64,000 nt of DNA from Planctomycetaceae bacterium (GTDB lineage Bacteria > Planctomycetota > Planctomycetia > Planctomycetales > Planctomycetaceae): contig PBSL01000036.1 of NCBI GenBank assembly GCA_002726205.1, positions 1-64,000 on the forward strand, in the 5' to 3' direction. The notes beneath the pieces are model-generated. The model was given only the letters and a program-made list of their open reading frames with translations. It did not search any database and was not told where the DNA came from. Positions 220-24,791 of this stretch are shown one piece after another. Numbering within the stretch: position 1 is the stretch's first letter; every line of letters starts with the position of its first letter. A program made the position numbers and the translations under genes.

Positions 220-304
220 CTGGCGATCCCTCGTTTCCTCATCGCGGCGCCCTTTATCTCCCGGTACCTGCCGAGCGACACCAGGGTGGTTTGTGCCTGG
301 CGGG

Positions 305-333
305 TTGAACGGCGGGGCTGGGGTGGGGAGACT
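305..333 (+). promoter_or_regulatory. Promoter, shared repeat family copy 1
   Basis: TTGAAC (305-310), a 17 bp GC-rich spacer, then GAGACT (328-333) followed by GG. The same -35/spacer/-10 layout occurs at 4486, 8285 and 9573, and the surrounding bases (CGGGTTGAAC.GCGGGGCTGG) are conserved too. Transcription would begin near 340, giving a leader of about 28 nt that carries a GGAGAG Shine-Dalgarno before ATG 368. Confidence 0.55.
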
Positions 334-367
334 GGGGGGGGCCTGACTCCGATCCTGGAGAGATTCG

Positions 368-2620
368 ATGAGAGTTCTTCTGCCGTTGCTGTTGGTTGCG
401 GGGATGGTTGGCTGTAGTGCCGAATCCCCGGTCTCCGACAGTGATGAAACTTCGTCGTCGCAAGGTCCTGCAGAAGCACCGGCGCCGACGTCACGGGTTT
501 CTCCGTTGAAGGTGGAAAACGATGAGAAAGATGCTCGGCCCGCCATGGATGATGACCCGGGTGGATCTAATGGAACTCTGATCGGTCGGTGGAAGGAGCG
601 GGGCCGCTCGGTCGAGGCCATTGGTAACCAAGGCATTCCTTACCATCAGATCGTGCGGTATGACGAGAAAACCGGTCGCTTTGAAGAGAGCATGACCCCC
701 GCATTCGGGAAGTCCCAGTCACGGCAAGCGACATGGGACCCGAGCAGCAAGACACTGACAACACGCCAAGGCCGTCAAGTTGGCGTGTTCAAACGAGTCG
801 ATCAGGACACGATCGAAATCACCTTTACGACCTCCGACGGCAAAGATGTGAAGGAGAAACCAGCTGTCTCCGTGCCCGGCCAACGCCTGACGCCAGAACA
901 GATCACCGAAGCCCTGGAGCTGCGGATCGGCCAATGGACATTCCACACCATGCCCACGTCGGGTCAGGCGGCATTCCTGGCAAAGCGAGTTGGGTCTGCT
1001 GATGACGCCGAGTTCGACAAGCGTTATCGGGAATTCGATCTGAACCGTCAGAAGATTGCGAAGCGGTTTGGTTCTCGAAAGCGGGCGAAAAAGAATGCTT
1101 ATCAACCCAGCCTCGTATTGAAGGGGCACAAGGGGAAGATCACGTCGGTCGCCTGGAGCCCCGACGGCAAGAAAATTGCCAGTGGCGACAGCGGGGTCTT
1201 CGACGACGAATTCAAACCGCTGCCGGCCAGCGTCAAGGTGTGGGACGCTGCCAGCGGCAAGGAACTACGGACCATCGAGAACCCCAAGATCGTCGCCTAC
1301 AGCATCGACTGGAGTCCTGACAGCACCAGGTTGGCCATCAAGGGAGGTGGTTTCGTTTCCATGGACGGTGAACAGTCTCCGGGAACGCTCAGTGTCGTTG
1401 ATGTCGTCAGTGGCAAGCAGTTGATTTCAGTCGAGGCAGCCAGCGGAAACTTGTTCGTCGGTGAGGCGGTTGCATGGAGCCCGGACGGCAAGTCGCTGGC
1501 CGCTATCAGCGGGGAAGACGTCGTGGTTTGGGCAGCCGCCACGGGCAAACGACTTCGGACGTTGAAGTACGCCGAAACCGATCGCAGCGTGTTGAGCATT
1601 TGCTGGAATCCAGACGGCAGCCGGATTGCCGTTGGTTGTGACGAGGAGTTTGTCGAGATCCGGGAAGTGTCGACCGGCAAGATCGTGAAAAAGCTGCAGG
1701 GTGAGGTCGGGCTGAAGATCGGCAACAAGACGATTCCCTACCCGGCCTTGATGCTGTTGGTGGAAAGTGTCTCCTGGAGCTCAAAGAGCAAATGGTTGGC
1801 CAGTTCGAGTTCTCAGAAGCTGAAGATCTGGGACGTGATAAAAGGAGAGGCATTGTGGACTTTTGACGATGCCGCCAAGCATCTGGCCTGGAGTCCGGAC
1901 GGAATCAAATTGACAGGAGCCACAACAACAAGCCTGGGCATGATCAAGAACGCCTCGATCAGTGTGTGGGATGCCAAGAGTGGTACTGAATGGAAGAAAT
2001 TCGAAGCCCACGAGAAGGGTGTCACAAGCCTGGCCTGGAGTCCTGACGGGACACGGTTGGCCAGCGGAGGTGAGGACCGCGGCAAGGGGTTTCTGCGGAA
2101 CCTCTCGACCGTGAAGATCTGGACACTGTCGGGGAGGACTAAGCCAACTGCCAAGAAACTGACGGCCAAGGAAGCGGCTGAGGTGATGGCCTGGGAAATC
2201 GGCAAGTGGGAGATACGGGGACAAGCGATGCCGGCAGAAGGCCAGCCACGTGCCATGGAAATGACGATGGAGGCACGCTGGAAAGTCGAAGGCAAGTCCG
2301 TCGACTACAAGTTCACTCTGGAAGAAGGTGGCAAAACGGTGAGTTATTTCGGGCACCAGGACTACAACGCCGCCAAGGGCGTTTTTGTCTATCGTTCCAA
2401 GTGGGGTGAAAATCCTGAGACGACCTCACACTCGCGTTACGACCCGGTCACGCGAACCTTACGCGGGCAAAGTGTCCCGACCGCACCGTCTGGTGGGCCA
2501 ACGACCACCACCGTCACAAAACGTGTTGGCGACGACAGGACTCAACAAAAGCTGGAAGTCCGCGAAGATGGCCGGTTGCTCTACTCTCATGAGACTGTTT
2601 CGACTCGCAAGGCACACTGA
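368..2620 (+). CDS. Lipoprotein with WD40 beta-propeller and two lipocalin-like modules
   Basis: The N-terminus MRVLLPLLLVAGMVGCSAE is a lipoprotein signal peptide with the lipobox ending at Cys16, so the protein is probably lipid-anchored. After an acidic, proline-rich linker, residues about 65-240 and 595-750 look like two related beta-rich modules. Each begins with a similar stretch (LTPEQITEALELRIGQW and LTAKEAAEVMAWEIGKW), which points to an internal duplication. Between them, about residues 245-590, are six or seven WD40-type blades with recurrent AWSPDG and VWDA motifs. WD40 propellers usually scaffold protein interactions; no catalytic residues are evident. The GGAGAG sequence 7 nt before ATG supports this start. 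Ligand and partner are unknown. Confidence 0.8.
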   Translation: MRVLLPLLLVAGMVGCSAESPVSDSDETSSSQGPAEAPAPTSRVSPLKVENDEKDARPAMDDDPGGSNGTLIGRWKERGRSVEAIGNQGIPYHQIVRYDEKTGRFEESMTPAFGKSQSRQATWDPSSKTLTTRQGRQVGVFKRVDQDTIEITFTTSDGKDVKEKPAVSVPGQRLTPEQITEALELRIGQWTFHTMPTSGQAAFLAKRVGSADDAEFDKRYREFDLNRQKIAKRFGSRKRAKKNAYQPSLVLKGHKGKITSVAWSPDGKKIASGDSGVFDDEFKPLPASVKVWDAASGKELRTIENPKIVAYSIDWSPDSTRLAIKGGGFVSMDGEQSPGTLSVVDVVSGKQLISVEAASGNLFVGEAVAWSPDGKSLAAISGEDVVVWAAATGKRLRTLKYAETDRSVLSICWNPDGSRIAVGCDEEFVEIREVSTGKIVKKLQGEVGLKIGNKTIPYPALMLLVESVSWSSKSKWLASSSSQKLKIWDVIKGEALWTFDDAAKHLAWSPDGIKLTGATTTSLGMIKNASISVWDAKSGTEWKKFEAHEKGVTSLAWSPDGTRLASGGEDRGKGFLRNLSTVKIWTLSGRTKPTAKKLTAKEAAEVMAWEIGKWEIRGQAMPAEGQPRAMEMTMEARWKVEGKSVDYKFTLEEGGKTVSYFGHQDYNAAKGVFVYRSKWGENPETTSHSRYDPVTRTLRGQSVPTAPSGGPTTTTVTKRVGDDRTQQKLEVREDGRLLYSHETVSTRKAH

Positions 2621-2798
2621 ATTGGCCTTTTACCGGGGAACTGGAACGGGTCGGCGATTTGCCCGAGTCGGATCTGGCACTCGGCGATAAGTGGTTCCGT
2701 TTACCCTCCCGTGAAACTGCACATCGACTTTGCTTTGCCCGGAGTTGACGAGAGATGGATTCGGGGCCTGCAGGTCGGCAATCTCCTCCAGGAATGAA

Positions 2799-4355
2799 AT
2801 GCAGAACATGAAATCCTTCAAGACCGGTCTCCTTGTCAGCTTGTTGTTTGCCGCACTGCCGCAAGTCTCTACCGGTGCGGAACCAACCCGGATCACCGTC
2901 ACCATTGACCGTGGTCGCGATCTTGGGCAAAGCTTTGGTTCACTGTTCGAAGCGACCAGCGACAACGCTTCGCTTGTTCTCGGGGCCGGTTTCCAGAACG
3001 GCTACAACACGCGATACCGCGCGGATCGCCATGCCGTGCAGTTTTTCATTCGACCCGCCAGCGGCAAACGCGAGCTGAAGACAGAGGAATTGCCCCGGTC
3101 CAATAACGAACTGACGGGCTCTTACCTTTTCGGACGTGACGGGCTGGTCTACTCGGCGTATGGCGGGACGAAAACGTGGGACTCAAGATCACGGGCCTGG
3201 CGCGTTTCAGGCACCGCACACGAGACCATGCGGGTCGGAAATGGCACGCTCACGTTCGTCGGCAGCAAGGTGACATTCGATGGGCGGACAATTCTCGATT
3301 CCCCTGGTGAGGGCAGTTACCAGTTGTTCTTTTACGCCCATGGGCACCTGTGCTTTTATCACGTCACCCGCCGCGGCAAACCCTACCGCCATTATGTCAG
3401 CGACGAGGATGGTTTCAGCAGGCTCTATGCGTGTCCGTGGACACCGAAGCAACCGCGGGTTGATCTCTCGGCGGCGGTGACGCTGAGGCTGCCGGTTGTC
3501 GGTGAGACGACGTTTGCCTGGGGCCAACTGGGGCGTCAGATCGTGACCGGATCGAACATTGGTGGTTTCTACGTGTTCGAAGGCGGAGCCTGGCGGACGG
3601 TGCGCGAACCGACTCTCGGTCGCAGCTACCAGCTTTATTCGACCCTTGCGTTTCACGACCGGCTGCTGATGGGACAGTATCCAACCGGACGGGTGTTCGA
3701 ATACGACGGAAAGAAAATCAGTGACCAGGACGGCTGGCCACCTGTCCTTTCGGGTGTCTCGAGAAGTGCGCGCGAGGCACAGACGACGGTGATCTATGGC
3801 GGTGATCTGTTCGTGGGCGTGTGGCCGTGGGCCGAAGTGTGGCGTTACAACCCCGACAGCCGTCGGTGGGCCTTCATGAGTCGCATGTTCAAGCATCCGG
3901 TTCTTTCGGACAAGATCACGCATCCCTACGAAGTCGAGAACAAGGATCACCCGGTGCAGAACCTGTGGGGCCAGCGAGTTACCAGCCTGGTCCCAAACGG
4001 CGCGGACCTCTTCATCTCGACGTCGTCCAAGGGAGTCGACAAGTGGTTGCCCGAGAAGTTTCCGTTTCTCGCTCCGGAAAAGTGGAAGTCTTACGGCAAA
4101 GTCTATCGGGCCACGATGCCCGGACATCTCGCTGCACCCGCGAAGTGGACCGATGGCCTCACGACGATCGAGTTCATCATTCGCGGGACCGAGATCACGA
4201 TCCAGCAGGACGGGAAACGTCTCGCCACGACCACGCTGACCGGATCCCTGGCGGATCAACTTGGCAAGGTGAAAGGACTCGGGAACGTCAAGTGGGGCGA
4301 CGGCATCTATGGTCGCTTTGGCGGAGTTTCAATCAGGGGGAAGATCCAGCGCTGA
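2799..4355 (+). CDS. Secreted kelch-like beta-propeller protein of unknown function
   Basis: A 518-residue protein. A start at ATG 2799, preceded by CCAGGA, gives a short n-region, a hydrophobic core (TGLLVSLLFAALPQ) and an A-x-A-like cleavage site near residue 26, so it is probably exported through Sec. ATG 2808 is an equally possible start. The body shows beta-strand blocks of the type GGFYVFEGGAWRTV and AEVWRYNPDSRRW, resembling kelch or galactose-oxidase-like blades. The last 70 residues (EFIIRGTEITIQQDGKRL) look like a small beta-sandwich. No catalytic motif is recognised. It lies between two lipoprotein genes and has no promoter I can defend. Confidence 0.65.
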   Translation: MQNMKSFKTGLLVSLLFAALPQVSTGAEPTRITVTIDRGRDLGQSFGSLFEATSDNASLVLGAGFQNGYNTRYRADRHAVQFFIRPASGKRELKTEELPRSNNELTGSYLFGRDGLVYSAYGGTKTWDSRSRAWRVSGTAHETMRVGNGTLTFVGSKVTFDGRTILDSPGEGSYQLFFYAHGHLCFYHVTRRGKPYRHYVSDEDGFSRLYACPWTPKQPRVDLSAAVTLRLPVVGETTFAWGQLGRQIVTGSNIGGFYVFEGGAWRTVREPTLGRSYQLYSTLAFHDRLLMGQYPTGRVFEYDGKKISDQDGWPPVLSGVSRSAREAQTTVIYGGDLFVGVWPWAEVWRYNPDSRRWAFMSRMFKHPVLSDKITHPYEVENKDHPVQNLWGQRVTSLVPNGADLFISTSSKGVDKWLPEKFPFLAPEKWKSYGKVYRATMPGHLAAPAKWTDGLTTIEFIIRGTEITIQQDGKRLATTTLTGSLADQLGKVKGLGNVKWGDGIYGRFGGVSIRGKIQR

Positions 4356-4417
4356 TGACTGCCTCGGGACAACTGCCCCGCGTTGTTTGTTTCGCGAGTT
4401 GTCGCGGTTGTGAGTTC

Positions 4418-4444
4418 CCGGAAAACCGTGTCCATTTTTTCCGG
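4418..4444 (+). terminator. Possible terminator hairpin
   Basis: CCGGAAAA (4418-4425) pairs perfectly with TTTTCCGG (4437-4444) across an 11 nt loop, 60 nt after the stop of the kelch-like gene and before the next promoter. The T-run is part of the stem rather than a tail after it, so termination is only a possibility. Confidence 0.35.
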
Positions 4445-4485
4445 CTACGGTGGATATTCTGTATTGCCGGTTCGAGGCCAGCGGG

Positions 4486-4514
4486 TTGAACACGGGGGCC
4501 GGGTTGAGAAAACT
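4486..4514 (+). promoter_or_regulatory. Promoter, shared repeat family copy 2
   Basis: TTGAAC (4486-4491), 17 bp, AAAACT (4509-4514) followed by GG. The -35 flank (GCGGGTTGAAC) and the early spacer match the copies at 305 and 9573. The sequence after the -10 (ACTGGAGTCCTGG) also recurs in front of the GH5 gene. Expected start near 4521, with a 25 nt leader to ATG 4546. Confidence 0.55.
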
Positions 4515-4545
4515 GGAGTCCTGGATCCTGGTCCTGGGAGATGCG

Positions 4546-7500
4546 ATGAGGGGGCTGTTGGTATTGCTGTTGATTGTCGGAGGGGCAGGTTGTGGCGACG
4601 GCCTCTCGCTTCGGGATGGCGATTCGGCCGGTCTTCCAACAGCAGGTCCACCACCAACCGGGGCTCCACCGATCGGCAGCCTGCGTTTGAATGAACTTGT
4701 TGCCTCGAATCGAGCGGATCGTCTCGATGACGAGGGCCAAAGCAGCGACTGGATCGAAATCCACAATTCAGGCAGCCAGCCACTGCGGCTCGGCGGGTAC
4801 CACCTGACGAATGATCTGAAGGTTCTCGACAAGTGGGCCTTTCCGAACAACCGGATCACCGCCGGCGGGTTCCAGATCGTGTGGATGTCCGGCCTGGATC
4901 GTGTGTCCGCGTCTTCGAAGACGGAGAAGACCTCGGCTGTGGCAATGCCGTTCGAGACGACACTGATTGAATCCGGCGCCGACTGGAAATATCTCGTGAG
5001 GACGCTCGACGAGAAGGCCTCGAAAACAGAACGGAAGTTGCCCGATGGCTGGGCCACCGTCGGCTTCGACGACAGCGAGTTTGCAGTCGGTCCGGCGGGT
5101 TTCGGTTTTGGCGACGAGGATGATGCGACCGAGATTCCTCGCGGAACGACCGTCGTTCTGACCCGACGCGAGTTCGTGCTGGATGAACCACTCGCATCAG
5201 AGTCACTCGTCCTGCAGGTCGATTACGACGACGGGTTCATCGCTTACCTGAACGGGACGCGTGTCGTCGCGGTGAACCCGCCGGAAACGGAGTTGGATTT
5301 TGGCAGCGTCGCGAACGGACTGCGAGAAGCAGGCCTGGCCGAGCGTTTTGATCTCTCCAGGCACTTCGGGCTTCTTCGCACTGGTAAGAACGTGCTGGCG
5401 ATCGTGGGATTGAATACGAGCCGGGGCAGTTCGGACATGTCACTTGAACCGGCGTTGGGCACTCTTCCCACCATCTGCCACGCGAACTTCCGGCTCAAGA
5501 AATCCGGTGAGACTCTCTATCTTATCGCTCCAGACGGGAACATCGCCGACCAGGTTCGATTCCCTCGTCAGATGGTCGACCAGTCACTGGGGCGGATTGC
5601 GGCGACCAAGTCAGGCTGGGGCTATTTCTTGACGCCCAGTCCCGGGAGGGCCAACGTTGGTCCGCAGCAATCAAGGCCCGTGACGTCACGGTTGTGGTTT
5701 GACCCGGAACCGGGCGCCTTTCGACCCGGGATCGAAGTGCGAATCAATCAGCAGTCCACGGTTGCTGCCGAAATTCGATTCACGAACGACGGGTCAGACC
5801 CAGACCATTCGAGCCCGTTGTTTGGCGATCCCGTCAAGATTGCCGAGACGTCGCTCTTTCGCGCTGCCGCGTTTGTTGGCAAGGAGCGGGCCAGCCAGGT
5901 TGTTTCGGCAACCTATCTCATCGGACCACGGACCACGCTTCCGGTGATGTCGATTTCGATGAAACCGGCCGATTTTCTCGACGTGCACCTTCAAAGCAGT
6001 GCCACGGGCCGAAGCAGTGAACGGCCGGCGTTTCTGGAAGTCTTCGATCCCGAGGGAAAACGAACCGTGGCGACGGGTTTCGGGCTCCGGCTCCACGGCG
6101 GCGCGGGTCGCCGCGGTGACCTGAAAACCAAGAAATCCTACCGCACGTACTTTCGCAAGGTCTACGGACAGGGGCGGGTGGACTATCCGATCATTCCAGA
6201 GGCCGGGGTCGCGGATTTCGACAAGCTGGTCCTGCGTGCAAATTCCAATGACCGTTCGCCCCACGGATCGAACATCCGCGATCAAGTCATCCGTGACGTT
6301 CACACCGACATGGGGGCGCTTGCGGCGGGTGGATCGTGGTGCGTCCTGCTCATCAATTCGGCCAGCCGTGGCGTCTACAACGTGACCGAACGCATGGACG
6401 AGGAGTTCTTCGCTTCGCACCTGGGGCCTGGCGCATTCGATGTCATGAAGACCGGTGACACCGTGCTCAGTGGCAACCGGAAAGGCTGGGACGACCTTCG
6501 ACGTTTCATTGAATCGACGGACTTTTCCGATGACGCCAACTTCAAGGAGCTTGCGCAGCGTGTCGACATCGAGGATTTCACCTCGTACATCATCGTCAAT
6601 CTCTGTCTGCAGAATTTTGACTGGCCGCACAACAACTGGTATGCCGCACGCCGTGTTCCCGACGGCAAATGGATCTTCCTGTGCTGGGACTCCGAATGGG
6701 GCCTGGGATATCGGCATCCGGGTTTGGGGGACGCACCTTACGGTGTCGACGTCGATCCGTACGCATTCATGGACAGCGGGGGCGCTTACGGTCGCGGCCT
6801 GATCAGGTCGGTGTTCCTGGCACTGATCGACAACCCCGGCTACTGCGAGTATTACCAGAAGGAGGTCCGCAGGCACTTGAAGGGCGCGCTTTCGATAAGC
6901 AACATCATGCGGCACATCCACCGCCACCGTGACGCGATCGCCTCTGGTATCGACACGGAATTCCAGGCACGGAGATACGACAAGAAGCGATGGCACAAGC
7001 AGCTCGAAGAGGTCGAGCGATTCGCACGACTCTGCCCGGGTTTCTTTCAGAAGTACACCGACGAGTACTTCTCGCACCGGGATTCGGCCAGTGGCGAAGA
7101 GCGTGTGGCGATGATCGAAGGCGTGGGGGGACGCCGCCACGTGATCTACCGCACTGCGAAAGGCCAGTTGCACGAGCTCTCGTCCTCGATCGACGGAAGC
7201 GGCTGGAGCGATGAGGCAATTCGCATTCCGGCCACCGCACCGCCGGCGACCGGGCGGCCGAGCGTTTACTCGCTGGCAGGAGGGGATCGGCATGTTCTTT
7301 ACCGGGGAACGGCGGGACATCTCCACGAATTGTTGTTGCCGGTCGATGGCGGCAAAGACGATGTTTGGCAGCACACGAACCTGACCTCGCTGCTCGAACA
7401 GCCCGTCGCCCGTTGCGATCCCTCGGTCAGCGTTGTCGACGGTGTGCCCCATATCGTCTACGTCGACAAGCTGTCCCGGCCGCGCGAGTTCTGGTTCGAC

Positions 7501-8217
7501 GGAAAGTGGCACCATCATCCGTTGCCTGCCGCGCCTCGTCCCGCCAGTGACGTTGTGATTTCAAGTACGCCTTCGGCTTTCCACGTCACCTATCGGTCGA
7601 TGTTTGGCGTTCCCTGTGAACAGGTTCTCTCTCGGAGAGCCGCTGCGGATGGTCAGCGGAACTGGTCACACCGGATTTTCCATCGTCTTCCGGCGCAGGG
7701 ACAGCCGCTCGGGTTCAATGCCGGCGGCAAACGGCGAATTGTCTACCGGGTGGCCGAGAAGTGGCCCGTGCGCGAGCCCTTCGTGTTCCGTTGGCACGCA
7801 AGACGGCAACCCGGTTTTCGCGAATATGAGGGGGGACGCAACACGCTCGTTCAGGCGTGGAACAACGGCGAGCGTTTCCACCGCCTCGAGTCGATCGGGA
7901 AGCCACTCCGGTCGGTCGCCGGAAACCCCTGCGTCGTTTATGACGCCAAGGGCGACCAGCATTACGTCGCCTACCGCGACGCCGACGGGCACATCCAGGA
8001 AGCCAATCGGAACGCGGATTCCTGGCAGTTGATCGACGCGACGACACTGGCCGGCGCACCTCCCGCGGCGGCGGAGCCGGCCGGGATCGTCTCTGCCCGG
8101 ACCGGGTCAAGATACTATGTCTACCTGGCACGCGACGGACACCTGCACGAGCTTTGTTTTGACGGCTCCTGGACCCATCGCGATCTCAGCGCGACGGTGC
8201 TGGCTGGCTCGAAGTGA
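4546..8217 (+). CDS. CotH-kinase lipoprotein with lamin-tail, chitobiase-C-like and lectin-like propeller domains
   Basis: ATG 4546 is chosen because it begins a lipoprotein signal (MRGLLVLLLIVGGAGC) nearly identical to those of the neighbours at 368 and 9638; the frame is open upstream but lacks a signal there. The mature protein has about 1200 residues. In order: a lamin-tail-like domain (about 45-110, LRLNELVASN...DWIEIHN); a beta-sandwich; a chitobiase C-terminal-like domain (about 385-455); a CotH kinase domain (about 470-790) with GVYNVTERMDE and WIFLCWDSEWGLG; and from about 850 a set of repeats of the form HVIYRT..G.LHEL, resembling tachylectin/PLL propeller blades. CotH proteins are atypical kinases that phosphorylate spore-coat or surface proteins. 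This looks like a surface-attached kinase with a sugar- or protein-binding tail. Confidence 0.85.
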   Translation: MRGLLVLLLIVGGAGCGDGLSLRDGDSAGLPTAGPPPTGAPPIGSLRLNELVASNRADRLDDEGQSSDWIEIHNSGSQPLRLGGYHLTNDLKVLDKWAFPNNRITAGGFQIVWMSGLDRVSASSKTEKTSAVAMPFETTLIESGADWKYLVRTLDEKASKTERKLPDGWATVGFDDSEFAVGPAGFGFGDEDDATEIPRGTTVVLTRREFVLDEPLASESLVLQVDYDDGFIAYLNGTRVVAVNPPETELDFGSVANGLREAGLAERFDLSRHFGLLRTGKNVLAIVGLNTSRGSSDMSLEPALGTLPTICHANFRLKKSGETLYLIAPDGNIADQVRFPRQMVDQSLGRIAATKSGWGYFLTPSPGRANVGPQQSRPVTSRLWFDPEPGAFRPGIEVRINQQSTVAAEIRFTNDGSDPDHSSPLFGDPVKIAETSLFRAAAFVGKERASQVVSATYLIGPRTTLPVMSISMKPADFLDVHLQSSATGRSSERPAFLEVFDPEGKRTVATGFGLRLHGGAGRRGDLKTKKSYRTYFRKVYGQGRVDYPIIPEAGVADFDKLVLRANSNDRSPHGSNIRDQVIRDVHTDMGALAAGGSWCVLLINSASRGVYNVTERMDEEFFASHLGPGAFDVMKTGDTVLSGNRKGWDDLRRFIESTDFSDDANFKELAQRVDIEDFTSYIIVNLCLQNFDWPHNNWYAARRVPDGKWIFLCWDSEWGLGYRHPGLGDAPYGVDVDPYAFMDSGGAYGRGLIRSVFLALIDNPGYCEYYQKEVRRHLKGALSISNIMRHIHRHRDAIASGIDTEFQARRYDKKRWHKQLEEVERFARLCPGFFQKYTDEYFSHRDSASGEERVAMIEGVGGRRHVIYRTAKGQLHELSSSIDGSGWSDEAIRIPATAPPATGRPSVYSLAGGDRHVLYRGTAGHLHELLLPVDGGKDDVWQHTNLTSLLEQPVARCDPSVSVVDGVPHIVYVDKLSRPREFWFDGKWHHHPLPAAPRPASDVVISSTPSAFHVTYRSMFGVPCEQVLSRRAAADGQRNWSHRIFHRLPAQGQPLGFNAGGKRRIVYRVAEKWPVREPFVFRWHARRQPGFREYEGGRNTLVQAWNNGERFHRLESIGKPLRSVAGNPCVVYDAKGDQHYVAYRDADGHIQEANRNADSWQLIDATTLAGAPPAAAEPAGIVSARTGSRYYVYLARDGHLHELCFDGSWTHRDLSATVLAGSK

Positions 8218-8284
8218 CCCCGGACCTCGTGGCGATATCGTGGCCGGGCTGTTGCCCCGTCATCCTGGAGTCTGCCGTGGCAGG

Positions 8285-8313
8285 TTGAATGTCGGGGCCG
8301 TGCTGCGGAAACT
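8285..8313 (+). promoter_or_regulatory. Promoter, shared repeat family copy 3
   Basis: TTGAAT (8285-8290), 17 bp, GAAACT (8308-8313) followed by GG. The spacer starts GTCGGGGCCG, matching the family. The next gene begins at 8410, so the leader here is about 90 nt, longer than in the three lipoprotein copies. Confidence 0.5.
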
Positions 8314-8409
8314 GGCGGTGGCGGTGCTGGCCTGCCTCTGTTGAAACGAGTCCAGGTGTTGTTTGAATCACACAACCGAGAACGTTCCACGAACATCAGG
8401 GGAGCCGAA

Positions 8410-9525
8410 ATGCACCGTAACAAGAACCTGGGCCTGATGATCTTGCTTGGCCTCACGGTGAACTTATTGTCGATCACTCAGGCCGGTCCGCCAGACGACG
8501 CCCCGCCGACCGACAACGGGGTGGCAACGAGCTTTCGTGGGCTGGCTGATTCCACTCCACCAAGTCTTGCCTGGAAAGCCGGCACGGTCGAAGAACACAA
8601 GGCATGGCACACAGCGTTTCGGGCGAAAATGCTTAAGGTGCTGGGCCGCATGCCCGGTCGCGTGCCGCTGAAGGTGAAATGGACCGAAACGCAGCGGTTC
8701 GACAAGTTCACGCGTCACAAGATCTACATTCAAACCGAGAAGACCTACTGGTGCCCGGTCTACTATCTGGTACCGCATGAGCTCAAACGACGAGTACCGG
8801 CGATTGTCTGTCTGCACGGACACGACGGTGTCGTCCCTTACCTGGGCGAGGGACGAAAGTCGGGCGCGAAGCGGCCGCTACTCTCCCGCGATTTCCCTCG
8901 CTTCTTTGCCGAGCACGGCTACGTGACGGCCGTTCCAATCGTTCGCGGATGGAACGAGACGGCTGGATACCAGGATCCGCAGGGCGGTTCCCTGAAACGC
9001 AGCTGCCAGAACGTGACCATGAACAGCGTGCTGTTGGGCATGTCGCCGGCTGGCCTGCGGTGCTGGGATGCGATGCGGGTGATTGACTTTCTTGAAACCC
9101 GGGACGAGGTCGATACGAAGCGGATTGGCCTGGCTGGCCTTTCCGGCGGCGGCACGCTGTCGCTGTATCTGCCGATTCTCGACGAACGTGTGAAGCTGGT
9201 CATGATGGCAGGCATTTTCTCGTCCTACCGCAACTCGTTTTACGCCATGAATCATTGCATCTGCAATTGCCTGCCGGGGGTGATGCAGTACGGTGAGATG
9301 TCCGACGTGGTCAGTCTCCACGCCCCCCGGCCCGTCCTGCTGATCAACGGCCGGCGAGACAAAAGTGCCCCCATTGCCGATGCTCGCCAGGGACTCGAAA
9401 AGCTGAAACGCGTCTACACCCTCCTGGGCGTGCCCGGGAGAATCGAAGCCGACTTCTTCGACGGTCCCCACGAGTGGTCGAACGCCAAAACGCTGGGATT
9501 CCTCTCGAAGCACTTCGGGAAGTAG
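8410..9525 (+). CDS. Secreted alpha/beta hydrolase, acetyl-xylan-esterase/dienelactone-hydrolase type
   Basis: ATG 8410 follows AGGGGAG and gives a Sec signal peptide (LGLMILLGLTVNLLSITQA) cut near residue 24. The 371-residue product is an alpha/beta hydrolase. The nucleophile elbow is GLSGGG, with Ser near residue 245. The acid is the Asp of NGRRDKSAP (near 317) and the base is the His of DGPHEWS (near 354). CLHGHDG marks the oxyanion strand. The length and motifs fit planctomycete acetyl-xylan-esterase-like hydrolases that remove ester groups from polysaccharides. Its position between the CotH lipoprotein and a GH5 enzyme suits carbohydrate processing outside the cytoplasm. The substrate is not determinable. 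Confidence 0.8.
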   Translation: MHRNKNLGLMILLGLTVNLLSITQAGPPDDAPPTDNGVATSFRGLADSTPPSLAWKAGTVEEHKAWHTAFRAKMLKVLGRMPGRVPLKVKWTETQRFDKFTRHKIYIQTEKTYWCPVYYLVPHELKRRVPAIVCLHGHDGVVPYLGEGRKSGAKRPLLSRDFPRFFAEHGYVTAVPIVRGWNETAGYQDPQGGSLKRSCQNVTMNSVLLGMSPAGLRCWDAMRVIDFLETRDEVDTKRIGLAGLSGGGTLSLYLPILDERVKLVMMAGIFSSYRNSFYAMNHCICNCLPGVMQYGEMSDVVSLHAPRPVLLINGRRDKSAPIADARQGLEKLKRVYTLLGVPGRIEADFFDGPHEWSNAKTLGFLSKHFGK

Positions 9526-9572
9526 AAGCTCCCTGGTCATTCGACACCGCGGCGTGGTTCGGATCGGTCGGG

Positions 9573-9601
9573 TTGAACGCCGGGGCTGGTCTGGCGAGAC
9601 T
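9573..9601 (+). promoter_or_regulatory. Promoter, shared repeat family copy 4
   Basis: TTGAAC (9573-9578), 17 bp, GAGACT (9596-9601) followed by GG. It is the copy closest to the motif consensus CGGGTTGAACGCCGGGGC. Predicted start near 9608, with a 30 nt leader to ATG 9638 that contains CTGGGGAAA. Confidence 0.55.
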
Positions 9602-9637
9602 GGAGTGGTTGGCCAAGACTGCTCCTGGGGAAATGTG

Positions 9638-11626
9638 ATGAGAGGTCTGCTGGGATTGCTGTTGATCGTGGGAGCGGGCGGGTGTGTTGACGATCAGCCG
9701 TCGCTTTCGTTCGAGCGACACGCGGGGTTTGTCAATGGCGTGGGCTTCGGGCGGGTTGTCAGCTTCAGCAATGACAGCACGGTGAAAGGGCAGGCCCGAC
9801 CCGGGACAGCAAAGCCGAAATCATCGAAGCGTGTTTCGAGCGGCGAGTGGTTGCGGGTCGTGGGCAAGCAGATCAGGACTTCGCCGAGTGCGGCGTACTA
9901 TCCCGCTGACCAGGTCTTCCTGGGAATGGGTGTCGCCCACCCGCGGACATCTCAATTGCCCTATGGAAGTGATGAACCGGTCGCCAGGTTCGCCAGGGAG
10001 CGGCATTGCAACATCCTGAGAATCACGACCCATCGGCCCGGCGAGGGAGGTCCGTCGGATGTCGACAAGTTCATCGCCTGGGGTGATGAACAGGTCCGGA
10101 TCTGCAAGAAACACAGGATCTACTCGATTCTCGACTGGTACCACCAATCCGGTTACAAGTTTCTGGTCCACGATCGGGCACGCTTCGATGCCTGGAAGGA
10201 CTTCTGGATTCGCGTCGCCCGGTATTACCGCGACGATCCCTGGGTTATCTTCGAGATTCTCAATGAACCGATCGTCGATCAAGACGAGTGGCTGCAACTT
10301 CGAGATCGAATCGCGGACTGCATCCGGGCAATCCGGGCGACCGAGGGGACCAGGAAGCACCTCGTGCTTGTCGGCGGAAATCGCTGGTGCAACTCGTCTC
10401 ACATCAGCGAATCCTGGGACGGGTTCAATCCCGACCCTGCCAGGATGACCGCAATCGTGTTCCACGACTACAGCGAGAGCACGCCGGAAAAGACGGCGAG
10501 AAACATCGACGAGTTCCAGAAGAACAACGAGATTCCCGTCTTCGGGTCTGAATGGGGGATCAAGCCGGGATTAAAGGGAGCCGGGGTGAAGGAGTGCAGG
10601 GAGCAGGAGATCGGCATGCTGGACAAGGTCTATCTTCCTCGCAAGATCTCCGAATGTTTCTGGTCTCTAAGCGGAAACGGCGGGTTTCTCGAACAGCCCG
10701 AGAACCCCTGGAAATCCCCCGGTCCCGGCACACCGCTGCATGATTGCATTCCCTTCTCAGACATCTGGATTCCTCGAACAATCGAGAATGCGTCTCGCTG
10801 CAGGATTGTCGTCCATCCCGAGATTTCCGCGAGTGCTGGGCAAATCGCAGCAGATGGAGTGGCCGGCAGCACAATCGCCCTGGAGATCAAGGACCAGGCC
10901 AACTGGCGAATCGAGTACAACGACCGGGCAAAAGACAGCGTTCTTTTCAGTACCAGCCACGGGAATCTGGAAGGGACGAACCCGGTCACCGGGTTGGCGA
11001 CGGGTACCGCGAAGGTTGTCCTGAAGTCAGGCAGGCCGGGCACAGCGGATGTCGCGGCCAGCTATTCCTGGAACGCCGCCTTGTGGCAGTACACGGCCGT
11101 TGACAGTTATGTTTCGAGGCCGAGTTTCGGGTACTGGAAGGCCGTTGATGGACGGATCTTCTCTGAATCCAGGATCGCCCGGGACAAGTACAAGGTCTCG
11201 GCATCCAAGAGCTGGCACGCGAAAGGGCCCGGGCCTCACTGGCTTGTCGTGGACCTGGGTGCGGCGTATACGGTTGGCCGGTTCGTTGTCCATCACGATG
11301 GCGCCGATGCTGCCGGGGGAAATCCCCAGCACAACACGAGTGATTTCCAGATTCAGCGAGGCAGCACCCTGGGTGGCCCCTGGAAGGACCTGGCACGGGT
11401 CAAGGGAAACACCGACAGCGTCACGACACACACGATTGCCCCGGTGAAGATGCGTTATGTCCGCCTGTACATCACCGGCGCCGGACAGACGGATGATCCC
11501 ACTGCCAGGATCTGCGAGTTTGAAGTCTATGCGACGGCGAGGGTGACAATTCAGGTGAAGGTCGGGAAATCCACCGCCCCCATCCTGCGGGCCGGTCGCG
11601 GTCGCGGAAGCAAGCCGACATCCTGA
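9638..11626 (+). CDS. GH5-family glycoside hydrolase lipoprotein with Ig-like and F5/8C domains
   Basis: ATG 9638 starts the lipoprotein signal MRGLLGLLLIVGAGGC, almost the same as that of the CotH gene. The 662-residue protein has a TIM-barrel GH5-type catalytic domain at about 75-400. FEILNEP gives the acid/base Glu (near 210), and PVFGSEWG gives the nucleophile Glu (near 305). Residues about 410-495 look like a bacterial Ig-like (BIG2) domain. About 500-650 match an F5/8 type C (discoidin) sugar-binding domain (PHWLVVDLGAAYTVGRFVVHH, MRYVRLYITGAG). It probably acts on beta-glucan or mannan at the cell surface; specificity within GH5 is not readable by eye. The promoter is the shared repeat. 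Confidence 0.85.
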   Translation: MRGLLGLLLIVGAGGCVDDQPSLSFERHAGFVNGVGFGRVVSFSNDSTVKGQARPGTAKPKSSKRVSSGEWLRVVGKQIRTSPSAAYYPADQVFLGMGVAHPRTSQLPYGSDEPVARFARERHCNILRITTHRPGEGGPSDVDKFIAWGDEQVRICKKHRIYSILDWYHQSGYKFLVHDRARFDAWKDFWIRVARYYRDDPWVIFEILNEPIVDQDEWLQLRDRIADCIRAIRATEGTRKHLVLVGGNRWCNSSHISESWDGFNPDPARMTAIVFHDYSESTPEKTARNIDEFQKNNEIPVFGSEWGIKPGLKGAGVKECREQEIGMLDKVYLPRKISECFWSLSGNGGFLEQPENPWKSPGPGTPLHDCIPFSDIWIPRTIENASRCRIVVHPEISASAGQIAADGVAGSTIALEIKDQANWRIEYNDRAKDSVLFSTSHGNLEGTNPVTGLATGTAKVVLKSGRPGTADVAASYSWNAALWQYTAVDSYVSRPSFGYWKAVDGRIFSESRIARDKYKVSASKSWHAKGPGPHWLVVDLGAAYTVGRFVVHHDGADAAGGNPQHNTSDFQIQRGSTLGGPWKDLARVKGNTDSVTTHTIAPVKMRYVRLYITGAGQTDDPTARICEFEVYATARVTIQVKVGKSTAPILRAGRGRGSKPTS

Positions 11627-11685: not shown

Positions 11686-11732
11686 GCCACACCCTGCCGC
11701 ATCCTGAAGAAGACAACCGCGGAGCCTGGACA

Positions 11733-14174
11733 ATGAACCGAATACGGACTCTTGCGTTGATCCTGACCACCCTGTCGGTCGTGCGAACGACCCAGGTCCT
11801 TGCGGACGAGTTTGCGCCAACCGCCAAAGAGGTTTCTTTCAACCGGGACGTCTTTCCGATTCTTTCCGATCGATGCTTCGCATGCCATGGCCCGGATTCA
11901 AAGGTTCGCAAGGCGACTCTGCGGCTGGATCGGGCCGGCGGTGTGGATGGAGCGTATCGGACCCACGATGGCTCAACGGCGATCAAGCCACGTTCGCTCG
12001 AGGAAAGCGAACTCTGGCAGCGCGTCACCAGCGGTGACGTTGATCAGGTGATGCCTCCTCCGCACGCACGCAAGAAGCCGCTTTCCAGAGAGGAACAAGC
12101 GATCATCAGGAATTGGATCAAGGCGGGCGCTCCTTATGAGCGATTCTGGGCTTTTGTGCCTGCCAGGAATCCGGACATTCCCAGGGTGCAGAACCGCAAG
12201 TGGAGCCGGCAACCGATCGATCTCCACGTCCTGGCCAAGCTGGAATCCCTTGGCCTGCAACCTTCCAGGGAAGCCGACAGCCGTACGTTGATACGGAGGC
12301 TCAGCTTCGACCTGACGGGGTTGCCGCCGACCCTTGACGAAATCAAGGTGTTCCTGGCCGACGATCGTCCAAAGGCTTACGAAGCCCTCGTCGATCGCTT
12401 GTTGGCCAAGAAACAGTTTGGCGAGCATGTTGCCCGCTACTGGTTGGACCTGGTTCGCTTTGCCGACACCAACGGCATGCACAAGGATTTTTACCGGAAC
12501 TTCATTGCTTACCGCGACTGGGTGATCAGGGCGTTCAACGACAACCTGGGATACGACGATTTCGTCCGCTACCAACTGGCAGGTGACTTGTTTCCCAATG
12601 CGACCAACGACCAACTCGTCGCTACGGGGTTCAGCCGGTTGCACCTCATCATTGATCGCGGCACCGCGCTGCCCGAGGAGAGTTTCTTCAAGAACGTGGT
12701 TGACCGGGTCACCGCGGTTGGCACCAGTTTCATGGGGATGACCGTCCATTGCGCGACCTGCCACGAACACAAATACGACCCACTCAGCCAGAAAGATTTC
12801 TACTCGCTGTTCGCGTTTTTCAACAACATCGATGCGGCGCCTGAAACCAACGGTCGTCCAAGGAACGGTCTTCAGCCTCCTTTCCTGGCGTTAGGAACAC
12901 CCGGACAGAACAGGAAGCTGCAGCAGTTGGACAAGCAGGTTGCTGAGAGTCTCAAGACCTTGAAGGCTTTGAAGGCGAAAGTGGCCGCAGAAAAAGATCC
13001 GCGGAAAAAGAAGGCGTTCGCCGAGGAACTCAAGGCAAGCACCGCCAAGCACGAGGGGCTGAAAGGAACGCGTGATCGGCTTGACCGGCAGATCCTGCGG
13101 GCAATGGTGATGAGAGAGCGCAAGGAAGTTCGTCCGACCCACATCAGGATCCGAGGGCAATACGATGCTCCTGGAGAACTGGTCGAGCGTAACACGCCCG
13201 GGTTCTTGCCCCCCCTGAAGAAAACCGGGAAGACTGCGACACGAATGGATCTCGCGGAATGGTTCGTCGACCCCGGCAATCCTCTCACCGCTCGGGTCGC
13301 GGTCAATCGCTTCTGGCAGCAGTTCTTTGGGACCGGGCTGGTGAAGACCTCCGAGGATATCGGGGCCCAGGGCGAAGTTCCCAGTCATCCCGAACTGCTC
13401 GATCATCTCACGGTGTCCTTTACCGCATCAGGATGGAACGTCAAGGCCCTGGTCAAACAGATCGTGACCTCCAGGACCTATCGCCAGTCATCTGTTTCCA
13501 CCGCGAGACAATTTGCCTCGGATCCTGAAAACCGGCTGCTGGCTCGAGGATCTCGTTTCAGGATGGACGCCGAGATGATCCGGGACCAGATTCTTGCCAC
13601 CAGCGGCCTGCTCGTGAACACGATGTACGGCAAGAGTGTCAAGCCACCTCAACCGGATGGTCTCTGGAAGTCAGTCACCATGATTGGCGAGCGATTCAAG
13701 GCCGACACGGGCGATGCAATCCATCGTCGCAGCCTCTACACCTACTGGAAACGCGGTATGCCGCCGCCCCAGATGACTATTCTCAATGCCCCGAACAGAG
13801 ACGCGTGCGTCGCCCGTCGCGAACGCACCAACACGCCCTCCCAGGCCTTGCTGCTGTTGAACGAGAGCGAATATCTGAAGGCGGCGCGTGAACTTGCCCG
13901 GAAGGTCCTGGGCATTGAAGGGGCAAGAGCATCGCAGCGTTTGGCTTTTGCCTACGAGACAGTCACTTCCAAGCTGCCGGACCAGCAGGAGCGGCAGATC
14001 CTGTCCGATCTCCTGCGGACTCTCCAGAAGAGCTATCTCGAAAGTCCTGCATTGGCGGCCGAGATTTGCGACGGATTGAACCTGGGCACCGCCGGGGAAA
14101 AGGCACAGCTCGCCGCATGGACTGTCCTGGTCAATGCTCTCTACAACCTCGATGTCACCAAAACCCGAGAGTAG
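11733..14174 (+). CDS. PSCyt1/DUF1549/DUF1553 planctomycete cytochrome protein
   Basis: An 813-residue secreted protein. A signal peptide (residues 1-24) is followed by a planctomycete cytochrome c domain with heme motif CFACH (Cys48, Cys51, His52). A DUF1549 domain follows at about 160-370 (FDLTGLPPT, RYWLDLVRFADTNG), then a lysine-rich helical insert, and DUF1553 at about 500-765 (RVAVNRFWQQFFGTGLV, RRSLYTYWKR). The protein ends 1 nt before the DUF1501 start, the usual pairing in Planctomycetota. The biochemical role of these pairs is not firmly known; a periplasmic redox role in glycan breakdown is often assumed. The start is supported by the signal peptide. Confidence 0.9.
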   Translation: MNRIRTLALILTTLSVVRTTQVLADEFAPTAKEVSFNRDVFPILSDRCFACHGPDSKVRKATLRLDRAGGVDGAYRTHDGSTAIKPRSLEESELWQRVTSGDVDQVMPPPHARKKPLSREEQAIIRNWIKAGAPYERFWAFVPARNPDIPRVQNRKWSRQPIDLHVLAKLESLGLQPSREADSRTLIRRLSFDLTGLPPTLDEIKVFLADDRPKAYEALVDRLLAKKQFGEHVARYWLDLVRFADTNGMHKDFYRNFIAYRDWVIRAFNDNLGYDDFVRYQLAGDLFPNATNDQLVATGFSRLHLIIDRGTALPEESFFKNVVDRVTAVGTSFMGMTVHCATCHEHKYDPLSQKDFYSLFAFFNNIDAAPETNGRPRNGLQPPFLALGTPGQNRKLQQLDKQVAESLKTLKALKAKVAAEKDPRKKKAFAEELKASTAKHEGLKGTRDRLDRQILRAMVMRERKEVRPTHIRIRGQYDAPGELVERNTPGFLPPLKKTGKTATRMDLAEWFVDPGNPLTARVAVNRFWQQFFGTGLVKTSEDIGAQGEVPSHPELLDHLTVSFTASGWNVKALVKQIVTSRTYRQSSVSTARQFASDPENRLLARGSRFRMDAEMIRDQILATSGLLVNTMYGKSVKPPQPDGLWKSVTMIGERFKADTGDAIHRRSLYTYWKRGMPPPQMTILNAPNRDACVARRERTNTPSQALLLLNESEYLKAARELARKVLGIEGARASQRLAFAYETVTSKLPDQQERQILSDLLRTLQKSYLESPALAAEICDGLNLGTAGEKAQLAAWTVLVNALYNLDVTKTRE

Positions 14175-18083: not shown

Positions 18084-18166
18084 AAGTCTAGAGCTCCGGA
18101 TTGGTCATTTTCGGCTGCGACGGCGTGCCAGTCCTTGCGGCAGTACGCTGCCTCGGATGGATCGGC

Positions 18167-18199
18167 CGGGTTGAATGCCGGGGCGGGACCCGGCGATGG
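18167..18199 (+). repeat. Orphan copy of the shared promoter repeat
   Basis: CGGGTTGAATGCCGGGGC (from 18167) matches the promoter repeats at 301, 4482, 8281 and 9569, including the TTGAAT -35. However, the bases 17 bp downstream are CGATGG, a poor -10, and no plus-strand gene follows. It is either a decayed copy or, read on the minus strand, part of a GCCGGG/CCCGGC hairpin past the end of the DUF1501 gene at 18217. Confidence 0.4.
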
Positions 18200-22319: not shown

Positions 22320-24791
22320 CTAATCGCCTGTCCGACGGGCCGATGCGGAGGCCTCTTTGGGTGTCCACATCCATGCCAGCAGCAGGCCGGCCCACCAGAG
22401 GGCACAGGCCCCCAGAGAAATCCACGCGCCCCGTCGCACGCTTTCCGGTTCGTAGCGGAAGACGACCTCGAAGTCCCCTTTTCGGGGAATCTCGACTGCT
22501 CGCCAGTCTCCGAAGGCTGGTTGGATCTCGACGTCGCGTGTCTTGCCTGCCTGGGTCAACCGGGCTGTCCAGCCCGGGTAATGGCGGTCCGCGAGCATCA
22601 GCACGCCCGCTGCAGTCGCCGAGCCGCTGAGCGTGACGATTTCGCCCTGGTCCTGGATCTGTACGTTCGGGTGAGCGTTTCGGAGCATGTTGCGGCGAGC
22701 CGGTGGCGGTACACGGAACAACCGTGGATCACTGCCCGGCTCGACGGGATCGTCGAGTTTGAAGAACCAGGCCCGGCTGACGGTCTTTTCGGACGGCAAC
22801 CGCCACAGCGACCAGTCGGCGTACTCCGGGATCTGCTTCAACAATCCTTCACCGGCCCGCTGTCGAGTCAGCCAGGGGTCGGAGAAATCACGCACCCGTT
22901 CGAGTGGGCCGTCCTGATCGGGTGTTTCGAAGTCGGCACCGTAGAGGATCGCCTCGATTCCGGCCAATCTCATGAACGTGACATCATCGTCGGCGATGCG
23001 CTGGGGGCTGCGTGAGAGCAACGTGACCTGGTCTCCGAAGCGGGACTGTTCGGGCAACGATGGCCAGCGGCCGGTCCACCAGTGGGCCGCCGCCTGATTT
23101 TTCGGATCCCAGTAAACACGAAAATCGGGCAGGCCGGCATCGGGAACAACCCGGCCTCCCGAGGCAAGCGGCAACAGGCCGACCGGTCCGACAAACCGGG
23201 ACTCGGGCATCTGGCCCAACGCCTCGAGAACGGGACTCTCCGGGTCCGGTGGTTCGAAGCGGACCCGGCGTATCGTCCAGGCGCAAAATGTCAGATCAAT
23301 GATCACGACACCAACCAGTCCGCCGATCAGGATCCGTCGCGATTCTGGCAGGCGGGCCGCAAACCCCACCAGCCCGATCGACAACAGGGCGCCGACGGGT
23401 GCCCACAACTCGGCGCGGAGCATTCGTTTCAGTTCGGCCGCGGGTGTCACGACTCGCGACTCGATTTCCTGCTTGGTGTAGCCGTAGTCGAGCAGTTGGC
23501 TTCGCAACGAGGCGTCCGGCCGTCTATAGAACCGTTCGCTGTCACGCGCGTCGATCAGCAACGCGGTGACGGCTGTGGCCAGCACGAACACGGCCACGCC
23601 GGTGAAGCGGACACACCAGAGTCCCAGCGATCGGGGGTCAATCCGCTCCAGTCCCCAACCGGCCAGCAGTCCCCAGAACAGCCCGGCAACCACGCTCCAT
23701 CGCGCCGGTGCCGCGAACCAGCCAATGATCGGCAGCGACAACAACTGGCGGTAGCCGGGCAGGTAACCTCCCAGTGAAAGCGCCATCGAAACCAGCAACA
23801 GGATTCCCCACAGCCGGACCAGCCGCTCTCGTCGACCGGTCAAAAAGAGTGTCGTCAGGCCCAGGCCGACCGGGAGCAGGCCGACGTAACCCAGGCTCTC
23901 GGTCCGTGAACTCTGCCAGGGAATCCAGCAGATCGGTTCCCACAACGGATGCCCCTGCAACAGACCGGGTGCGAGTTGGTGAACGAGCAGGTGCCAGGGA
24001 GGACTCGAGAAGCTCTCGAGAAACTCGATACCTCGGCCGCGGCTGTCTCCCTGGATGATCAGTTCGACCGCCGGGAGCAGTTGCACGGCTGCCAGCGAGA
24101 GGCCTCCCAGAACGGCCAGCGGGACCGCCAGGCTCCGCCAGGCCACGCTGCCTCGCGCGGCCGGTGCCAGGGGGATCGCGACGATCGCCAGCAGCAGGAT
24201 CGTCAGGATCGTGTAGGCGGCAATCTGGAAATGGCCGGCCAGCAATTGCACGCCCAGCACCAGTGACAGACCGATCAGCCAGCACCACGCGCCGTCGCGC
24301 AGCCATCGCCAGGTGGCCAGTACGGCCAGGGGCAACCAGCACGCGGTCGTGTACGACCAGCACTGGTCAACGTGGATGACAAAGAAACCCTGACCGGCAA
24401 AGACCGTCGCGGCCAGGATCGACGCGGCACGTCCCAGCCCGAAGACGCGGGCACACCAGTAGGCCAGGCCTCCGGCCAGCGCCACGTGCAGCACCAGCGA
24501 CCACGCGAAGGCTTTCTCGACGCTCAGCAGGCGGTAGAGTATCTGGTGGACCGGGTAAAACACGCCGATGCGGCCATCGGCCACGGCCGGGGAGCCGAAC
24601 CCCAGTTGTTCGTTCCACAGGGGAATCCGGCCTTCGGCCAGTTTTCCGGAGTAGAAGTGGTAAAGCGGCAGGTCGGTCGATGTGATCCCGGGTGCCGCGG
24701 GTTGTCGACCGGCGAGCAGAATCGGCCAGAACCAGGCGGCCACAACGATGGCCAGCAGGCACAGCGGTCCGGCACGGTGCGCAACTCGCAT
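22320..24791 (-). CDS. YfhO-like polytopic membrane protein
   Basis: An 823-residue integral membrane protein with about a dozen hydrophobic segments. The first is at residues 11-30, others are clustered to about residue 490, and one is near the C-terminus (GAWISLGACALWWAGLLLAW). An extracellular-type region of about 250 residues lies in between. The early STDLPLYHFYSGKLAEGRIPLWNE resembles YfhO/GT-C-type membrane glycosyltransferases, in which an early acidic loop binds the lipid-linked sugar donor. YfhO proteins glycosylate wall polymers in Firmicutes; the substrate here is unknown. The ATG overlaps the stop of the cytochrome gene (TGATG), so the two are translationally coupled. Confidence 0.75.
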   Translation of the reverse strand: MRVAHRAGPLCLLAIVVAAWFWPILLAGRQPAAPGITSTDLPLYHFYSGKLAEGRIPLWNEQLGFGSPAVADGRIGVFYPVHQILYRLLSVEKAFAWSLVLHVALAGGLAYWCARVFGLGRAASILAATVFAGQGFFVIHVDQCWSYTTACWLPLAVLATWRWLRDGAWCWLIGLSLVLGVQLLAGHFQIAAYTILTILLLAIVAIPLAPAARGSVAWRSLAVPLAVLGGLSLAAVQLLPAVELIIQGDSRGRGIEFLESFSSPPWHLLVHQLAPGLLQGHPLWEPICWIPWQSSRTESLGYVGLLPVGLGLTTLFLTGRRERLVRLWGILLLVSMALSLGGYLPGYRQLLSLPIIGWFAAPARWSVVAGLFWGLLAGWGLERIDPRSLGLWCVRFTGVAVFVLATAVTALLIDARDSERFYRRPDASLRSQLLDYGYTKQEIESRVVTPAAELKRMLRAELWAPVGALLSIGLVGFAARLPESRRILIGGLVGVVIIDLTFCAWTIRRVRFEPPDPESPVLEALGQMPESRFVGPVGLLPLASGGRVVPDAGLPDFRVYWDPKNQAAAHWWTGRWPSLPEQSRFGDQVTLLSRSPQRIADDDVTFMRLAGIEAILYGADFETPDQDGPLERVRDFSDPWLTRQRAGEGLLKQIPEYADWSLWRLPSEKTVSRAWFFKLDDPVEPGSDPRLFRVPPPARRNMLRNAHPNVQIQDQGEIVTLSGSATAAGVLMLADRHYPGWTARLTQAGKTRDVEIQPAFGDWRAVEIPRKGDFEVVFRYEPESVRRGAWISLGACALWWAGLLLAWMWTPKEASASARRTGD

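Follow-up and report, generated by a model that had tools for sequence, protein, structure and literature searches.

A short promoter-like element before exported-protein genes of Planctomycetaceae, in part joined to a leader and lipoprotein signal

Mobile promoters have been described in prokaryotes (Matus-Garcia et al. 2012; van Passel et al. 2014, both as cited in PMC8049555), and in Borrelia the erp genes and their "upstream homology box" join one promoter, leader and localization sequence to diverse outer protein parts; the mature parts of the Elp proteins are completely unrelated, and the erp genes sit at an allelic position on cp32 prophage plasmids (PMC10016077; PMC12018966). By analogy, these two are the closest concepts for an element found in a window of 64,000 nucleotides of a Planctomycetaceae bacterium (contig PBSL01000036.1, here C37), which belongs to a 4.86-Mb genome that is 96% complete. 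Like mobile promoters, as far as they are outlined in PMC8049555, it is a short repeat and putative promoter lying before unrelated genes in more than one genome: near-identical sequence stands upstream of non-homologous genes, and the pattern over several genomes, including presence and absence at orthologues, suggests spread. Unlike the mobile promoters outlined in that source, the planctomycete element is tied to exported proteins, and a subset of copies drags along a leader and signal-peptide coding sequence. With Borrelia erp it has in common a conserved putative promoter and leader peptide before unrelated mature lipoproteins, in three genes of the window, whereas the planctomycete copies are scattered over several large contigs of chromosomal appearance, with none in viral contigs, the core also travels unaccompanied by the signal peptide, and neither sequence nor phylum is related. 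Judged by this comparison, the planctomycete case would work like the erp upstream homology box and is not a member of it. A literature search over open-licence papers found no report of such a module in planctomycetes.

A pattern search of the window bore out the four copies reported in the initial annotation. All lie on the + strand, at 297..337, 4478..4518, 8277..8317 and 9565..9605 (cores 303-335, 4484-4516, 8283-8315 and 9571-9603), before genes for a WD40 lipoprotein, a CotH protein, an esterase and a GH5 protein, respectively; three show no mismatch to the pattern and the remaining one a single mismatch, against a chance expectation of 0.00 from 100 dinucleotide shuffles. The constant distance claimed between TTGAAY and the -10 also holds, a layout of TTGAAY, exactly 17 nt and RARACTGG being common to 4/4 copies. 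In detail, the 8283 copy starts with CA where the other copies have CG, and the 4484 copy has a deviating middle, CACGGGGGCCGG. A partial element comprising the left half (18160..18187, + strand), antisense to the adjoining genes, is probably a relic.

The four genes, all on the + strand, encode a WD40-repeat lipoprotein of 750 aa (368..2620), a CotH and lamin-tail-domain (LTD) lipoprotein of 1223 aa (4546..8217), an abhydrolase/acetyl-xylan-esterase-like protein of 371 aa (8410..9525) and a GH5 and F5/8C-type lipoprotein of 662 aa (9638..11626), the last having no close homologue among 169 related genomes at E<=1e-60. In the WD40, CotH and GH5 genes, as the initial annotation had proposed, the element runs through a shared leader (338-367, 4519-4545 and 9606-9637) into codons 1-16 of a near-identical lipoprotein signal (368-415, MRVLLPLLLVAGMVGC; 4546-4593, MRGLLVLLLIVGGAGC; 9638-9685, MRGLLGLLLIVGAGGC), after which the proteins are unrelated; leader and signal together occupy 338..415, 4519..4593 and 9606..9685 on the + strand, and the ATG stands at +65, +62 and +67 from the element. 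In this subset the leader measures about 30 bp and holds a ribosome-binding-like GGGGAGA, followed by MRxLL...GC. Similarity between the DNA of the three genes spans about -17 to about +120 (68-71% over 136-140 bp, E 2e-10 to 2e-17) and drops to background right after the lipobox Cys, a fall-off taken from a segment-wise identity comparison that was used for this point only and in which two start codons were mis-anchored. The mature parts belong to separate families (WD40; CotH+LTD; GH5+F5/8C). The esterase shares the element alone: its leader differs and its signal-like N-terminus is its own, and further members of this element-only subset occur on contigs C38 and C58. A combined promoter-plus-secretion module would fit the WD40, CotH and GH5 genes, which carry element, leader and signal, but not the element in general, which also exists without leader and signal. 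The sequences are best read as two nested modules, the 41-bp element on the one hand and the leader with the signal peptide on the other. A gene for an exported-looking protein of about 515 aa (2809-4355), with no Pfam match and no element of its own, separates the WD40 gene from the second element.

The three window copies with a common leader and signal are neighbours on one strand, as expected if a single lipoprotein gene had been duplicated in tandem and its 3' parts replaced, the element never having moved independently. Such descent within a gene family is improbable, however, and is partly refuted by the element-only copies: the element occurs on at least seven contigs, it is conserved beyond the level of its flanks, and orthologues differ in whether they have it. 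Further element genes of the window genome include those for a sulfatase, a PSD1/PSCyt2 cytochrome protein, a PhoD-like phosphatase and a Gfo/Idh oxidoreductase, and in all of these the element is present and the shared leader absent. The element-bearing genes form more than one gene family.

The window genome was surveyed by pattern and sequence-model searches. The pattern gave 13 matches at <=3 mismatches, against 0 for the reversed pattern, and the sequence model further recovered weaker copies and left halves, which cluster on contigs C37, C40, C45 and C58. The positions are not random: the copies are intergenic and lie mostly 35-190 bp 5' of genes for exported-looking proteins. Among 51 strong copies in the fetched loci, 36 have a start codon on the same strand within 230 bp downstream, typically about 60 bp 3' of the element, and several of the other 15 reach a contig end. 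A signal-like N-terminus, called by a crude hydrophobicity rule applied equally to element genes and neighbours, was found in 35/36 element genes and in 177/348 neighbours (51%; p=5e-9). A few copies are antisense or geneless (C45 6052, C45 18370, window 18169). At locus L038 (495-6719) a gene for an ECF sigma factor of a Rhodopirellula/Verrucomicrobium family heads a run of minus-strand genes divergent from one element copy; two genes there, 1945-4689 and 495-1997, look PSD1- and DUF1501-like by sequence, with no NCBIfam hit among those tested.

Clear copies among 170 genomes of the order are found in the window genome, in three MAGs that belong to a second genus (7-9 copies each) and in one MAG of a third genus, which has a single copy; four more genomes have one match each at two to three mismatches, and these were taken as chance. 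A looser pattern searched over 84,980 species matched only MAGs of Planctomycetaceae and one contig filed as Acidimicrobiales, and the named records matching elsewhere are marine Planctomycetaceae MAGs. The exceptional contig (L071, JASMKJ010000553.1), with two copies next to repeat-rich genes, is probably a misbinned planctomycete contig. Repeat-rich genes of a similar kind adjoin several element copies of the sister genus (L045, L071, L076), the window itself opens with the end of one (1-218, LNGLTSLSDAAAESLSKHKG-type repeats), and their repeats may be the cause of contig breaks near elements. The DNA of leader and signal peptide follows the element in its restricted distribution (strong E-values). 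Viral contigs contained no element match, and carriage by viruses was rejected accordingly. Recent multiplication within the sister genus is suggested by a subfamily of copies there that have an additional GGCGGTTACCGCC block and share sequence as far as about -75.

Alignment of 45 distinct copies delimits a conserved block of about 41 bp, from -6 to +34, with the consensus CYGGCGGGTTGAACGCCGGGGCTGGGGTGGGGAGACTGGGG. TTGAAC in the -35 position is nearly invariant; the least variable parts are GTTGAAC, the GGGGCTG core and GAGACTGG, and the spacing is constant in all pattern-detectable copies. None of the three promoter classes compared, sigma-70, sigma-54 and ECF, accommodates all of these features. 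Sites resembling TTGACA/TATAAT of a sigma-70 promoter are absent at the elements, and the TGGC-N9-GC of the consensus, which recalls the sigma-54 signature GG-N10-GC, is there by chance, the GG that is near-invariant in sigma-54 promoters being variable in columns -4 and -3. ECF sigma-factor promoters have AAC in the -35, with CGT expected in the -10 (PMC8103513). The element is like them in the AAC of its TTGAAC, in its fixed spacing and in the exported-protein genes that follow, and unlike them in its conserved spacer and in its -10, where CGT is absent and GAGACTGG stands instead, with a GAGACT box unlike any known bacterial -10. The ECF sigma factor encoded beside the C38 copy, the one neighbouring ECF compared, was rejected as the common factor, since the sister genus has no close counterpart of it.

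Identities other than a promoter were considered as well. A structured RNA was rejected, with no Rfam match above gathering and no covariation; one sub-threshold match, to a snoRNA on the other strand (E=0.88), is a chance one. The element shares with REPIN/RAYT repeats its short intergenic sequence and its population within one genome (PMC8049555); a REPIN consists of two inverted palindromic REP units, however, and the search for covariation or a conserved hairpin found none in the element, which is asymmetric and strongly oriented to gene starts. The consensus stretch GGGGCTGGGGTGGGGAGACTGGGG could form a G-quadruplex, but this is not a conserved property because several copies lack the G runs. 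The element is not an intrinsic terminator of the upstream gene either: terminator-like sites occur at chance level, with 0 at elements.

At orthologous sites the element is kept while its flanks diverge. In seven orthologous pairs, changes affect 27/224 element cells (33 positions) and 63/140 flank cells, the flank counts being ungapped and hence somewhat inflated. Within the element, 7/105 box cells and 20/119 spacer cells are changed (p=0.02), a comparison in which box conservation is biased upward by the motif search being fixed in the boxes, except in the synteny-aligned pairs; in the three syntenic pairs alone the figures are 1/45 and 7/51 (p=0.06). In one of these (L062/L128) both boxes are identical and the spacer has changed, and in another (L048/L126) a 55-bp block is identical amid diverged surroundings. 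This pattern fits the footprint of a promoter or an operator. A transcription factor may bind the element as an operator or activator site, with the true promoter beside or within it, and several features speak for this: the GGGGCTG middle block is as conserved as the outer boxes, the identical L048/L126 block reaches further upstream, and the -10 box has the unusual sequence described above. Nevertheless, two boxes at a fixed 17 bp, with the start codon typically about 60 bp downstream, are promoter-like, no symmetry of inverted or direct repeats, as dimer sites typically show, stands out, and no second conserved promoter box, nor any conservation beyond +34, follows in the 45 copies. We consider an operator or activator site of this kind unlikely. 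The spacer is conserved beyond the needs of sigma recognition alone, and recent common descent may lie behind part of this conservation.

Gains and losses are seen at orthologous genes. The PSD1 gene at 11733 has no element, and its counterparts in G167 and G169 carry one; the esterase gene at 8410 carries the element, and in the sister genus the two orthologues whose upstream DNA can be read share its near leader and have no element. Genes A, B and C follow a single element at L050, and B and C have elements of their own at L055 and L060, respectively, with presence and absence recorded at these genes across L050, L051, L055 and L060. Upstream synteny is kept at 35/50 junctions without an element, at 0/9 where it precedes a single member of an orthologous pair (p=1e-4 against the junctions without an element) and at 2/6 where it precedes both; because the junctions were sampled from element-centred loci, the effect size is uncertain. 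Since upstream synteny is never kept where the element is present in only one member of such a pair, DNA rearrangement is the probable means of its spread, perhaps joined by horizontal transfer. The spread by recombination put forward earlier thus gains support from these synteny breaks, from the presence and absence at orthologues, from the GGCGGTTACCGCC subfamily and from a copy joined to a truncated unrelated gene. In this last case, in G019 (L044, contig C68, about 24130-24360), some 140 bp of element, leader and signal peptide replace the first part of the gene, out of frame, and the gene lacks its first ~65 codons relative to homologues of other genera. Neither carrier genus has a match to the adjacent 1.2 kb; the junction may be a natural fusion or an assembly chimera, a chimeric contig being possible.

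Homology between genomes often begins or stops at the element, and one-strand arrays of gene, element and gene are found in the window and on C45. Together with the synteny breaks and the fit of GTTGAAY to the attC core GTTRRRY, these might mark a boundary between cassettes or a target of site-specific recombination, resembling an integron attC or the end of another mobile element, with the position before genes a by-product. This is highly improbable, and attC identity was rejected: no integron integrase was found above cut-off in the window genome, G019 or the sister genus, the conserved block begins at -6 in the 45 copies with no upstream partner core, and there is no fold or hairpin covariation. 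The tie to exported genes is strong and viral contigs are free of the element. Moreover, where L062 (6318-11033) has 4.7 kb with two element-gene units, the otherwise syntenic L128, from another MAG, has at 11703-11765 a scar that retains a remnant of the start of the second gene, a case of gene loss leaving irregular scars and not of precise excision.

We hold it rather likely that the element belongs to a reusable expression and export module of two levels, a promoter core and an optional leader with signal, dispersed by rearrangement. Observed in favour of this reading are the sequence and its distribution, the link to exported genes, conservation at orthologous sites, the association with synteny breaks and the presence or absence of the element at orthologues; from these we infer promoter activity, one factor common to the copies, co-expression and a recombination mechanism. 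The ~41-bp core would most likely serve as a promoter, either one read by an alternative sigma factor specific to the lineage or one that overlaps an operator; its -35 would be TTGAAC and its -10 GAGACTGG, at the fixed 17-bp spacing. In a subset the core would be joined to the ~30-bp leader and the 16-codon lipoprotein signal. Ectopic recombination or gene conversion, gene loss and perhaps occasional horizontal transfer could have placed copies before differing genes, which would bring different exported-protein genes under one start signal and some of them also under one export signal. Co-expression, which had been predicted from the window, would follow only if a common factor were confirmed. 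More doubtful is a stronger version, in which the promoter-plus-signal-peptide module is still active and dispersing, captures export genes under one putative sigma factor and crosses genera, its copies being preferred joints of rearrangement and new lipoproteins being assembled by module capture.

How bacteria wire new proteins, whether acquired or made, into regulation and export has so far been mostly inferred, and dozens of copies of differing ages across related genomes, with gains and losses at orthologues, make the capture of regulation and of signal peptides directly testable. The setting is a phylum with many exported degradative enzymes and little promoter knowledge, in which the motif gives a starting point in the search for whatever factor reads the element. 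Judging from the sequences, these planctomycetes may reuse a ready-made switch plus export tag to make new exported proteins.
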